Source: Pseudo-nitzschia pungens (lineage: Eukaryota; Bacillariophyta; Bacillariophyceae; Bacillariales; Bacillariaceae). Taken from it: a stretch of DNA of 64,000 nucleotides. This document shows, one piece after another, positions 54,900 to 60,521 of this stretch (the stretch's first letter is position 1; each line of letters begins with the position of its first letter). Location of the stretch: NCBI GenBank assembly GCA_037355855.1, contig CM074763.1, positions 4,774,001 through 4,838,000 of the forward strand, in the 5' to 3' direction. The position numbers and the translations under genes were made by a program. Under the pieces are notes generated by a model. That model did not search any database, was not told the DNA's origin, and saw nothing but the letters and a program-made list of their open reading frames with translations.

Positions 54900-56332
54900 G
54901 CGAGAACGCATCGGTGCTAATCGAAGCATCGGATTTTTTTTTCGGAGAACAAGATCATCTTTGTCGAAATTGTCCATCCGTAGGGTTTGCATCCAACGCG
55001 CTGTTGTTGCAATGGACACGTGTGTGTTTTCAAAATGCCATCACAAACAAGAAGCTCCGGGCTCCAGCTCTTCTCGGAGATATCCGGCATATCCGAGTAA
55101 GCTCACCGGCGTCCTTTTGCGTCTCCGGAAACCGCCATCTCGAGGATTCGATGAACCGCATCCGCGGAATCCTTGGGTCTTGTTCTCGAACCCGCGCACT
55201 ATCCTGTCTCTTGGAGTCTTTGTTGGCATGTGATGGATCCTGCTTCCCGTCGTACCCGGGATTCGCAGTGGTGATGTGGTAAACGCGGGACACGGTTGCA
55301 CAACCTCGGTCGCCCTTGTCTGGATCCCTTGGACTTTTTTTTTCGTCACGGCGAACCAACGAACACAGAAAGTACCGTATGGCGACACGGTTGACTCGAT
55401 GGGTGTCGGAAGAAGGAACAATGCCGATCATCACTAGCAGAAATGTTTACGTACGGAGGATTACCTTAGTAGTAACCTTAGTGCCTCAGAGTGGCCTTGT
55501 TGTTGCGGTACTGTTGTGAATCTTGTTCGAACGGCATATTTTCACCATACAGTAATGGTTGTTGGATACAATGAAAGGCAAAGTGTGGTCCTCATTAGTG
55601 TACTTGGTGTAAGACTTACGCAGGTTCCGTCAATGATTTTTTTGGAAATCGAAAGAAAGACTGGTGTGTTCTTGTCACGGGATCAAAAAAATAGTAGATG
55701 ATCATTATCTTTCCGAGTAAGGTTACTAGTACTCGTACGGGTAACTTACCGTACGGTATCCGGTATGAGTCTCCAAGTGTGACACGAACCTTCGTAAAAA
55801 TAAAAAACAACACAGATAATATTATTTTTGTCTATTGCCCCGAATGATCATTGCATCGTTGCGACTTTCAAACTCGCGCACGCCCGGTGCGAAATTTGAA
55901 TTTTGGCAGGTTTGTGTTCGGTAACCTTACTCTTACCTTCTCGTACAGTACGGTACAATACCGTACCGTACATAACCTTACCCGTAAGTGTACCGGTTCG
56001 AGTCTTGACGAATAACGAGGTCGCACTCGTACCGTACGGTACGGAAAAAAAGAAAGAAAGAAAGATTGATTCATTCGATATTACGATTACGTAACTTACC
56101 GGTCACCACTATCGTATTTTGTGTTTTGAGAGTTGTCCCATTGCTTCGATACAGCACTTTCTGGTGCTTGCTCCAAGCATTCTTCGTTTCGACATCTTTC
56201 CGATTCTCATTTTTTTAAAAAAAGGTTTGGTTTGGTTGCGGACAGGACGTTCTCGAGATTGATCCAAATCCAAATCCCAATCCCAATCCCAATCCATCCA
56301 CCCACCCGCTCGTCCACTCTTCCGCGACAACG
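54900..56332. other. Intergenic
   Basis: No gene called. 55440-56100 is dense in TACGGTA, GTACCGTAC and GTAAGGTTAC words. The promoter of the next gene lies immediately before 56333, with caaatccc-type repeats near 56265-56300. Confidence 0.55.
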
Positions 56333-57475
56333 ATGACGATCGGCAAGCGCATCCTCGCTGCGTTGCTGGGAGCGGCCGCGACCCCGCTCCTCGCCGCAGC
56401 AGCGGTCTCTCCGTCGTGTCCGTCCGGCCCCAAGAGCGTCGTCGCGCCCCCGTTCGATCAGTCCTGCCAGAACCACTGCTCGTTCGGCGCGAATGCGGGA
56501 GAGATCGTCGGTCCCGCGGTCCTGACATCGGGAGACGCCTCGGGCTACGAGGTGGCGGCCATTTATTTCGGCCACCAGAACTGAGGTGCGTTTTGTTGTG
56601 GTGTGTTGTGTTGTTTTGCGCATCATTGCGTTGTGTTGTGTATCGTTGCGTATGTGATCCAACCCATTGCATGTTTCCCACTATTACTCGCCTCGTGGTT
56701 CGGAATCATCTCCCAACGATTCCACCGTCCTGCTCACTCCCTCATTCATCCCCTAATCCACTCCCTCGCTATCCCGCTCACCCACTCACCCACCCACTCT
56801 CCAGGCGGGTGCGTTGGCATGGTTTCCGCCATGGCCAGCGCGTACGAGGGTCTCACCGAGGCCGAACGCGAGCGCGTCTTTTTGCTCGCCGTCGGACGGA
56901 ACGAATACTCGGCCCTCGATTCGAACTTTTGCCGGGGGTTTGCGGCGTGCGCCGACGAGGGCGGGGCGCCGTGGTGGACGGCTCTGGGAGCCTCCCAGCG
57001 GGACGTCGTCTTTTATCTCAGGGCGGATCCGACCCGCGACGATTCGTGGGAATTCTACTGCCACTATTCCATGAACACCCACCGGGCCGAGTTTGGCGAC
57101 ACGATCCGGGAGATGCTCGCCGTCACCGAGGCGGCGGCGGCAGAAGCTGCGGCAGCTGCGGAACTGGAGGTGGATATGGATATGGATATGGATATGGATA
57201 TGGAGATCGAGGCCGCTGACGAGGAGGTGGAGGCAGCGGTCACCACCGATGTTCTCGACGAACTGGACACGGATTTGGAGTTGGAGTTGATCGGGAACGA
57301 GACGACGATCGAACCGGAAGACGAAATGGAACCACCTATTCTCAGTCCGGTTTCCCTGGTTGACAGCGACTCGGCTCCCTTGGCGTCGTCGTCGTCGTCG
57401 TCCCGCGCGGCCGTCACCGCTAACGCAATGACATTGATGGCGGGTGCATCGATCTTGACATGGTTCGTCTCGTAA
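56333..57475 (+). CDS. Candidate secreted selenoprotein with UxxC motif
   Basis: Model: join(56333..56585, 56805..57475), 307 aa with TGA (56582-56584) read as residue 84. The donor GTGCGT at 56586 (same type as the ETF-QO donor) and the acceptor CTCCAG at 56804 join the exons so that TGA is followed by Gly-Gly-Cys: HQN-U-GGCVGMVSAMASAY. Before it lies a strand-like segment YEVAAIYFG, so the layout is that of a thioredoxin-fold active site (CxxC with the first Cys replaced by Sec). The N-terminus is a signal peptide (RILAALLGAAATPLLAAAA) followed by three cysteines. The C-terminal part is acidic with a DM repeat, and ends with a hydrophobic tail (ANAMTLMAGASILTWFVS) that could be a GPI or membrane anchor. 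If TGA were a true stop, only an 83-residue protein would result. A SECIS element was not identified. Confidence 0.65.
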
Positions 57476-57510
57476 GGAACGATCCTTCAAGTCACAACAA
57501 TGCATAGTAC

Positions 57511-57540
57511 TTTTGTTTGATAACAACCTATCAAACAAAA
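57511..57540 (+). other. Perfect 12-bp hairpin in the 3' region
   Basis: TTTTGTTTGATA, loop ACAACC, then TATCAAACAAAA; all 12 pairs match. It lies 35 nt after the stop of the candidate selenoprotein gene. It lacks the UGA.GA quartet of a standard SECIS, so it is probably a 3' UTR or processing structure. Confidence 0.7.
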
Positions 57541-58307
57541 CGAAACAGAAACGGAAGAGAAAAGAACGGAACGGAACGGAACGAAACAAGGTTTCCGAAA
57601 CAAGGTGTCGTGTATTGTTGTGTGGTTGTCGGTGCCGACAGCAACGGTATGGTTTGTCTCGGTCGGAATGAAACGGACGCTGAATGACGCACCTTTGATC
57701 GGTCCGGGAAGGCAACGCGATGCCATTCCCACCAGAGTACCGCAAATGGTGCCGACGAGCAGACGATGAATTGTTCGGAGCAAACTTTTACTGTAGGAGT
57801 ACAGAGCCAGTAGGAACGCCACACCAGCAACAATACTACTACTACACGTCACTAGTACCTGCGAAGAAGTAGTAGTAGTACTACTACTAACGAGCAGCAG
57901 ATTTAGCAGTTCTTACTACTACGACAACACAGAAACCAATTCTAGTTGTGATATACTAGTACTAGTACTAGTCGAGTCGTCTTCAAATCCCAAACTGATT
58001 GGATGTACGACAATGCTTTGTACTATTATTTTAGATGCCGATGTGTGGGTTGATTTTTGGAATGAACGATTGCTCTCACTGGGCAAGAAGAAGAAACGAG
58101 CAAGCAGCAGCAGTTGACCAGAAAACTACTAGTATCTGGATTCTTGTTCCAGCACCGTGTTCTCCTTCGTCTGATAACTGTCACGCAACCCCGTAGCGAC
58201 CCCCCGTGGCAACCTCATTTGTGTGCAGATTTAACACGACATATGTTTGCATCACCTTGCGTTGCACAACCTATACGTTCAAGGTTATTGAGCGGTTTGG
58301 GTCGCGC
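57541..58307. other. Intergenic
   Basis: Contains ggaac pentamers (57558-57580), agt/act trinucleotide tracts (57840-57890, 57950-57975) and no recognisable gene. Any SECIS for the preceding gene should lie here or just upstream. Confidence 0.5.
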
Positions 58308-58884
58308 CAGGGGGTTGCGAAAATCAGACTCCGTGGTTGTGAAACGCAGACTCCGTGGTTGTGAAACGCAGACTCCGTGGTTGTGAAACGCAGACTCCGT
58401 GGTTGTGAAACGCAACCTCTTACTATTCTGAAATACTTCCTATGTGTTTGCGAAAATCAGACTCGGTGGTTGTGAAACGCAACCTCTTACTATTCCGAAA
58501 CAATATCAACGTGGTCGCGAAAATCAGACTCCGTGGTTGCGAAAATCAGACTCCGTGGTTGTGAAACGCAGACTCTGTGGTTGTGAAACGCAGACTCCGT
58601 GGTTGTGAAACGCAGACTCCGTGGTTCTGAAACGCAGACTCCGTGGTTCTGAAACGCAGACTCCGTGGTTGTGAAACGCAGACTCTGTGGTTGTGAAACG
58701 CAGACTCCGTGGTTCTGAAACGCAACCTCTTACTATTCTGAATTACTTCCTATGTGGTTGCGAAAATCAGACTCTGTGGTTGTGAAACGCAACCTCTTAC
58801 TATTCTGAATTACTTCCTATGTGGTTGCGAAAATCAGACTCGGTGGTTGTGAAACGCAACCTCTTACTATTCTGAAACAATTCT
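58308..58884 (+). repeat. 22-bp minisatellite array
   Basis: Two 22-bp units alternate: GTGGTTGTGAAACGCAGACT plus CC, and GTGGTTGCGAAAATCAGACT plus CC or CG. They are interrupted by a longer unit containing AACCTCTTACTATTCTGAA and CTTCCTATGTG, repeated four or five times. There are no unique spacers, so this is not a CRISPR array. Position beside two transposon-like genes suggests transposon subterminal repeats. Confidence 0.85.
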
Positions 58885-58964
58885 TACGAGTTATACCCCG
58901 TTTTGAATATCATAACTCGCCTCCACAATTACAATTCCACTATGTCTTTTTTCTGCTACTTTTA

Positions 58965-60521
58965 TCATACACTCTCCATCTCACCTAGGAACTCAACCAT
59001 ACCTGGATCAACAAATGCCTCTTCTTCTGAATCGTCGTCCTCCCTGCTGTCACTATCATCATTACCATCATCCTCATTACTGCTTTCACGCACAAATTTT
59101 TCCTTTACTAGCATCTCAAACTCCCTCCCAGTCTCCTCACCTTCTCTTAATTCCCTTACACGTCTACACAACCGATTGAAAACTCTCATTCCTTCCTGAG
59201 TCCATCCATCCTTTTTTCCACTTCTTTGATCGCAGTATCGTTTCTTCTCTGTACCCCTCCTCTTTGGATTTGGACCATCCTTAATTGTCTTCTGCTCAAC
59301 CCACACCCTGTATTCGTTGTGAATCATCATCAAACCAAATGCCTCATCCGATACTGTAAATATCTCACTAATCAAATCTTCACTCTTTCTTGTATCAAAA
59401 TTCGTAACATTTGGATTGATCGCCGACAGAATTCTTGTCAAAAAGTACTGATACTCATCGTTATCAAACATGTTAGGTCTGCGGTATTCAGGGCAAATGA
59501 TATCTCTTGTCGTTACATCAATTTGTACTTTGCTTGGAAAATGTTCTGGTACCCTATTTGCGTAAGCGTCGTCTTCATAAACAATGCACACCAGTGAGTT
59601 CCCTGTTCATATTATGATACACATGTGCAATTACCCTCTTTTGTTGTCACTCAACTTACCAAACCATCTTTTTCGTGCCAGCGTTTGAGTGTTATGGCGG
59701 AGCGCACTGAGTGCTAGCTTCACGGTACCCACATGGTAATTAGCAAACGTCTTGCTGGTCACCCCCTTGAGAATACTTATCCTACCCGCTTTGATTCCCT
59801 TCTCTATAATCTTGGCATTCTCTTCTTTTTTTCCCATTGGGAATTTTGTCAATTTATATACCTTCTCTTTTACGTACTCCCTCACCTGCTTCTCAACAAC
59901 CTTTCCCTTTGTGTCGGCTAGTGACAATAGATCACCCGACACCAATCCTTCCATTTGACTGCTTAACTCACTAATTTTTCTGTCCTCATTATCTGGTCCT
60001 CTCACTTCTTGGACCGGCAATGCTATACCCTTTGGAACGCCAGGTATCGCCTGTCGTTTGTTCTCCTCGTCGTTGTTGATAGGATCAGAACGTGTAGTCT
60101 TGGACAACAAAATCTCCGTCACCACCTTCTTGTAGTCACCACCCTTCTTTCCCCGCAATAAGCGCTTTATCGTCTCCACGCCTTGCTCGAAATCCTTTTT
60201 CTCCCTCTCTGCTTTAGCTCGCTTCTTCATACTACCCACCAGTCGTCCTGGCGGTGTCTCTTTTGTGTTCTCGTCTGTCGTCTTGCCTGTTGAATTTCCT
60301 GTCCCTCCACCGGCTCTGGATACAATCGTCCCGAGTTCTTCATCGTCACTCAACTTTCGTTTCTTGCTCATCTCAGTAGACACTCTCACTGTCTCGTCAT
60401 TTACTGTGGTCGGTTGATCCAATTCTGTTGTGTCTACTACATCCTCGTATACACTTGGCCCATACGACATTCTTCGTGTGGACCTTTTTTCTGGACATAA
60501 ATTTGGATTGGTTGTATTCAT
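58965..60521 (-). CDS. Two-exon hypothetical protein of a putative DNA transposon, 499 aa
   Basis: Model: complement(join(58965..59602, 59660..60521)). The donor GTAAGT at 59659 and the acceptor AACAG at 59603 (57-nt intron) join KRWFG to NSLVCIVYEDDAY in frame. N-terminal 100 residues are Ser/Thr-rich and charged (STEMSKKRKLSDDEELG). A basic helical middle follows (FEQGVETIKRLLRGKK, TSKTFANYHVGTVKLALSAL). The second exon is compact (NMFDNDEYQYFLTRIL, KRYCDQRSGKKDGWTQEGMR, VFNRLCRRVRELREGEETGR) and ends in an Asp/Glu/Ser-rich tail. No domain is named. Divergent to the transposase-like gene at 61022 and next to the minisatellite, it probably is an accessory ORF of the same element. Confidence 0.7.

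Follow-up and report, generated by a model that had tools for sequence, protein, structure and literature searches.

We analysed a window of 64,000 nucleotides from the diatom Pseudo-nitzschia pungens (assembly GCA_037355855.1, contig CM074763.1, positions 4,774,001 to 4,838,000), in which a two-exon gene on the forward strand at 56333..57475 is interrupted by an in-frame TGA. With a probability that we place at roughly 0.88, this gene encodes a secreted selenoprotein in which UGA84 is read as selenocysteine (Sec) and contributes to a UGGC redox pair on a thioredoxin fold. Judged from the sequences, it is one conserved protein interrupted by TGA at codon 84; its relatives stop there, and both flanks are conserved. 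Because the relatives stop at the same codon, the TGA is more than a chance event. Sec at residue 84 had already been proposed in a first-pass annotation of this DNA, and the proposal is now supported by the shared stop codon, the conserved flanks, the Sec genes of the genome and a hairpin resembling a Sec insertion sequence (SECIS).

Gene structure

Exon 1 (56333..56585, + strand), assigned from the spliced frame, the relatives and the codon composition, starts with the ATG at 56333 and encodes the signal peptide, a Cys-containing N-terminal region, the first strand and the TGA (56582..56584, + strand) of the proposed Sec84. It is followed by a GT-AG intron of 219 nt in phase 1 (56586..56804, + strand), which was placed by reading donor and acceptor and whose join is uninterrupted in the relative P0003. 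Exon 2 (56805..57475, + strand) encodes Gly-Gly-Cys87, the remainder of the thioredoxin fold, an acidic/Ser-rich linker and a C-terminal hydrophobic tail, and ends with the TAA at 57473-57475. The TGA lies one base ahead of the donor, G/GTGCGT (slash, splice site), and the acceptor is CTCCAG/GC with its AG at 56803-56804, so that the exon junction reads UGGC, that is U84-G-G-C87. The spliced frame has 307 codons, and codon 84 is its sole internal stop. This reading confirms the junction given in the first-pass annotation, and the hydrophobic N- and C-termini described there were upheld as well. The GC content at the third codon position falls from 0.82 (exon 1) and 0.76 (exon 2) to 0.55 within the intron. 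The intron (73 codons) contains no in-frame stop, and its retention would keep the frame open.

Relatives and conservation around the site

Three protein searches gave 23, then 10, then 40 further relatives (the last among 67 matches, with only the 7993 candidates sharing the most words scored), 73 distinct sequences in total. Only P0003 is full-length; 10 of the others are N-terminal halves and 62 are C-terminal halves. For their comparison, alignment A9 was selected after local trials (59/59 C-halves and 8/9 N-halves placed as expected), while A4, A7 and A8 were rejected because one or other set of halves was misplaced.

The N-halves carry the argument, because the C-half starts in genomic contigs could come from the intron alone. 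Nine of the ten N-halves end in one and the same alignment column, directly ahead of the TGA (...YFGHQN, with variants), and thus keep the stop. The tenth, P0031, goes on with W-G-T-F and then diverges; in our own back-translation this tail would be TGA read as Trp, followed by reading into a G/GTACGT-like donor. The full-length P0003 also has W at the site and reads ...YFGLQS-W-AGCVDMV, matching the predicted splice join of the window gene. Tryptophan at TGA is expected from a gene caller using genetic code 4; alternatively, P0003 could carry TGG at the site. P0025, which is close to P0003 (77% identity), stops at the site. Two of the relatives, P0027 and P0004, are MMETSP transcript models, and P0027 ends exactly at the site, which places the stop in transcripts.

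Most C-halves (56 of 62) start, by alignment, at residues 90-94, which is 6-10 residues past the TGA (51 at residue 90, one at 91 and four at 94; P0064, among these 56, has an uncertain start). The other six start elsewhere (P0050, P0053, P0054, P0069, P0070 and P0072). Among the sequences of the two alignments inspected, no relative but P0003 runs on into an N-half. Three pairs of N-half and C-half sit on contigs of equal size (2708, 3827 and 21703 bases), which are probably the same contigs. Cys87 is present in all four relatives that reach this position, Met90 and Met94 are conserved, and the C-terminal hydrophobic tail occurs in 60/62 C-halves. When the 62 C-halves and P0003 were checked at position 84, the aligned residues were W (P0003), L (probably P0050) and S (probably P0069); the L appears to be intron-derived. 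A relative from Pseudo-nitzschia multistriata, P0005, has 67% identity. The distant relative P0073 (33% identity, E 1.3e-4) likewise begins at a Met past the site and may extend the family beyond close relatives.

Since nearly all relatives are stored in databases as halves and Met90/94 are conserved, one may consider two separate products, of which one would be a short secreted peptide that terminates at the TGA and the other a protein of the C-terminal part, initiated at Met90 or Met94. We regard this as very improbable: the C-half would carry its hydrophobic tail without a signal peptide, its fold would be short of strand 1 and of the conserved C87, and P0003 is read as a single chain. It is still harder to believe that no recoding takes place because the TGA is lost from the mature mRNA, through another donor or editing, or because the locus is a pseudogene. 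In-frame donors that skip the TGA are indeed present when those between 56481 and 56700 are joined to the acceptor at 56804 (GC at 56487, 56544 and 56571; GT at 56511). However, use of the GT donor would cost 25 residues, among them the strand, the other three are GC donors, and none of the four retains strand and site together. The first-pass annotation had named removal of the TGA by another donor among the observations that would speak against Sec; such donors can be drawn in the sequence, but the MMETSP model P0027 keeps the stop at the site, and P0003 retains a residue there. A pseudogene is also at odds with the conservation on both sides of the TGA.

Selenium machinery and other Sec genes

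The genome has tRNA-Sec, which recoding of UGA84 would need. Six tRNA-Sec matches were found, each scoring 77.6 bits (cut-off, 47). Four of these equal-scoring copies form a tandem array with 126-base spacing (C10:2371879-2372342), and single copies lie on C1 and C5; most genomes have one or two tRNA-Sec, and six is a large number. In addition, nine other genes have a TGA at a known Sec site, with families assigned by Pfam match and under what we take to be their selenoprotein names, SelL/PRXL2 included (asterisk, TGA): two GPX (NVASK*GATRREY and NVACS*GKTK), SelT (FCVS*GS), two SelM-like (SCPA*TL and SCPS*TL), MsrA (G*FWG), SelU-like (SLG*PLC) and two PRXL2/SelL-like (HYG*FLC and RRPG*VLC). 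The second PRXL2/SelL-like gene, L044 (C1:921500-924700; motif RRPG*VLCREHG), has an ATGAC..CGAC SECIS-like hairpin at L030:2106-2177.

A SECIS-like hairpin in the 3' untranslated region

A SECIS-like hairpin lies at 57684..57756 (+ strand), 209 nt past the stop codon, with ATGAC at 57684-57688, CGAC at 57753-57756 and helix arms at 57689-57697 and 57743-57752. Its folding energy is -24.7 kcal/mol, and 14 of the first 16 bases are paired. As the Rfam SECIS model has no match in this genome, we wrote our own scanners and benchmarked them on the Sec genes of the genome itself. The final scan looks for ATGAN and NGAN around a stable hairpin in which 13 or more of the first 16 bases pair, and has no AA requirement. 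It finds an element within 1.1 kb past the stop in five of eight known Sec genes (MsrA, GPX1, GPX2, SelT and SelL), or in six of nine when L030, shown later as a Sec gene, is counted. The narrower form ATGAC..CGA is present in 5/9 known Sec genes.

The background set consisted of 298,284 bases on both strands (26 loci and the window, 6 redundant loci excluded). It gave nine passing rows, two of which are one site in overlapping loci, and the ATGAC..CGA form occurred twice, in the hairpin at 57684-57756 and in L030. When 57476-58575 was shuffled 400 times with its dinucleotides preserved, 16 of the shuffled sequences contained the looser form and one contained the ATGAC..CGA form. A plain ATGA..AA..TGAT pattern showed no excess over chance in the window (21 against 17.7 expected). 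An Rfam scan of 55500-59500 returned only three chance-level matches to long non-coding RNAs. An A precedes ATGA in all six known elements and in the hairpin at 57684-57756. These six elements (L012, L013, L017, L030, L033 and L039) share A-ATGA[C/A] and CGA[C/A/G]-A cores, which are possibly a signature of the lineage and could serve to scan the whole genome. A MAFFT alignment of the six known elements was set aside since the stems looked misaligned.

Several observations weigh against reading UGA84 as Sec or limit its support, and most of them concern this hairpin. In a typical SECIS, AA (or CC) stands unpaired at the apex, some 11-12 nt above the core; here the CC lies at 15 nt and the AA at 20 nt, the minimum-energy fold pairs both, and several of the known elements of this genome also have the AA paired or off this distance. 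NGAN is followed by A in 6/6 known elements and by G in the candidate. The final scan finds no element in three of the nine known Sec genes (the two SelM-like and the SelU-like). Its settings (version 4) were fixed after the results of the stricter scans had been seen: version 1, which required unpaired AA or CC, found nothing in 57476-58800, version 2 gave one or two weak candidates, and in version 3 a hairpin at 57684-57759 was the top candidate, yet 2 of 60 random 1,100-base stretches of the window scored better. The Rfam model SECIS_1 has no match at the target, which says little because it has none in the whole genome either. The first-pass annotation had proposed to look for a SECIS; a SECIS-like hairpin is present, and its apical AA is not canonical.

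The remaining points concern the relatives. Their stops are taken as TGA from two W readings (P0003 and P0031), the C-half starts by themselves could be explained by an intron in genomic contigs, and the Ser of P0069 aligned at the site lies in a possibly intron-derived stretch. No Cys occurs at position 84 among the 73 relatives, few of which have any residue aligned there. The homologue with Cys at the TGA that the first-pass annotation suggested as a check, and that usually corroborates a selenoprotein, was therefore not found, and what the relatives show instead is a stop flanked by conserved protein. Of the three conditions under which the first-pass annotation would have given up Sec, this is the only one that went against it. 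A six-frame search of the whole genome (66.9 Mb), in which the best 3 candidates were scored, showed no Cys paralogue, the two matches being the two exons of the gene itself. Searches of viral and genome contigs found no DNA of the relatives.

The irregular SECIS candidate also bears on whether selenium is involved at all. In a programmed readthrough without selenium, a near-cognate tRNA for Trp, Arg or Cys might suppress UGA84 and yield an ordinary protein in small amounts, and this likewise predicts a conserved stop with both flanks conserved. We consider it unlikely, as the stop coincides exactly with the redox position of the thioredoxin fold, in UxxC spacing, the genome makes selenoproteins, and the core of the hairpin in the 3' untranslated region is shared with the other Sec genes of the genome. 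Under our preferred reading, UGA84 would be decoded as selenocysteine by the tRNA-Sec of the genome, directed by the hairpin at 57684-57756.

Predicted fold

AlphaFold predicts a thioredoxin fold in which the site opens the first helix, in agreement with the strand-then-active-site layout noted in the first-pass annotation. A first AlphaFold model was poor (mean predicted local distance difference test score 48.1) and was left out of the fold searches. In P0003, where the site residue is 79, the predicted elements are strand 69-74, helix 79-94, strand 104-110, helix 112-120, strands 146-152 and 161-168, and helix 169-186. The structure matches included Sco1, ResA and peroxiredoxin Q, with 6-17% identity among the matches listed. 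A sequence profile search of PDB, with Cys inserted at the site, gave one match at E<=10, the non-significant 2k6v (Sco1, E 0.14), whose alignment sets the Sco CxxxC against the UGGC site. No conserved Pro is seen before the third strand, where a cis-Pro would be expected. The Q-R-D just before the third strand is invariant in 24 aligned sequences and varies in few of the wider alignment. The window protein matches no Pfam family at E<=1; when 6 of the 73 relatives were searched at E<=10, nothing rose above chance, and no match to PF00578, PF13911 or GILT was obtained.

On this fold, Sec84 and Cys87 would lie where the first strand ends and the first helix begins, and would pair as a selenenylsulfide/thiol redox couple. 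The signal peptide would direct the protein to the secretory pathway, and the C-terminal tail or a glycosylphosphatidylinositol (GPI) anchor probably holds it at the cell surface. The signal peptide together with the hydrophobic tail suggests a surface-tethered redox protein, which may act as a thiol-disulfide oxidoreductase or a peroxide reductase.

Comparison with known families

The protein is like the AhpC/TSA - TlpA/ResA - Sco superfamily in its predicted fold and in having its redox pair where strand 1 gives way to helix 1. It differs in having no Pfam match, in UxxC as opposed to the CxxxC of Sco, and in its extra conserved Cys at 45, 49, 127, 133 and 170. SELENOL/PRXL2-like proteins and AhpC_b are UxxC selenoproteins like the candidate, whereas the candidate has no PF13911 or PF00578 match, is predicted to be secreted and has a hydrophobic C-terminal tail; profile searches of the genome for PF13911/PF00578-type genes do not list its locus. 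GILT proteins are likewise secreted with a CxxC site, but the candidate has no Pfam GILT match.

The accessible parts of two surveys give the published context. PMC7539508 reports 42 algal selenoprotein families, three of them new (PDI_e, AhpC_b and SymSEP), describes AhpC_b and notes a hemerythrin domain in algal TlpA; none of the descriptions in this part of the paper fits the candidate. GILT, TlpA, Hypo and MSP are Sec families of algae (PMC7539508, PMC2375036). MSP is a membrane selenoprotein with two Sec, found in Dictyostelium, Chlamydomonas, Volvox and Ostreococcus, and the Thalassiosira pseudonana selenoproteome table in the available text contains no unnamed family (PMC2375036). Our literature searches found no description of this family.

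With no Pfam match, no fitting description and no literature account, the protein apparently represents a new selenoprotein family, undescribed as far as searched unless it corresponds to 'Hypo' (PMC7539508) or to one of the hypothetical proteins 1-3 (PMC2375036). The suggestion of the first-pass annotation that the family was unfamiliar and possibly undescribed thus holds. We think it somewhat probable that this is a family of cell-surface, GPI-anchored thioredoxin-fold selenoproteins of the diatom lineage, existing in the Sec form only with no Cys counterpart, and missed so far since gene prediction breaks its members at the UGA. As no Cys form is found among the 73 relatives, the function may strictly need Sec. 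If these readings are true, an entire family of selenoproteins, its members numbering in the dozens, is at present annotated as pairs of hypothetical proteins. A selenium-dependent redox enzyme would then act on the outer surface of the algae, and an extracellular UGGC enzyme would be a specific candidate for their selenium need.

Two further features lie downstream of the gene. Minisatellites occupy 58313-58876, with a 22-base unit repeated 18.6 times and a 67-base unit repeated 2.9 times. On the minus strand, a stop-to-stop open frame of 213 residues at 58965-59606 is convergent with the selenoprotein candidate gene.
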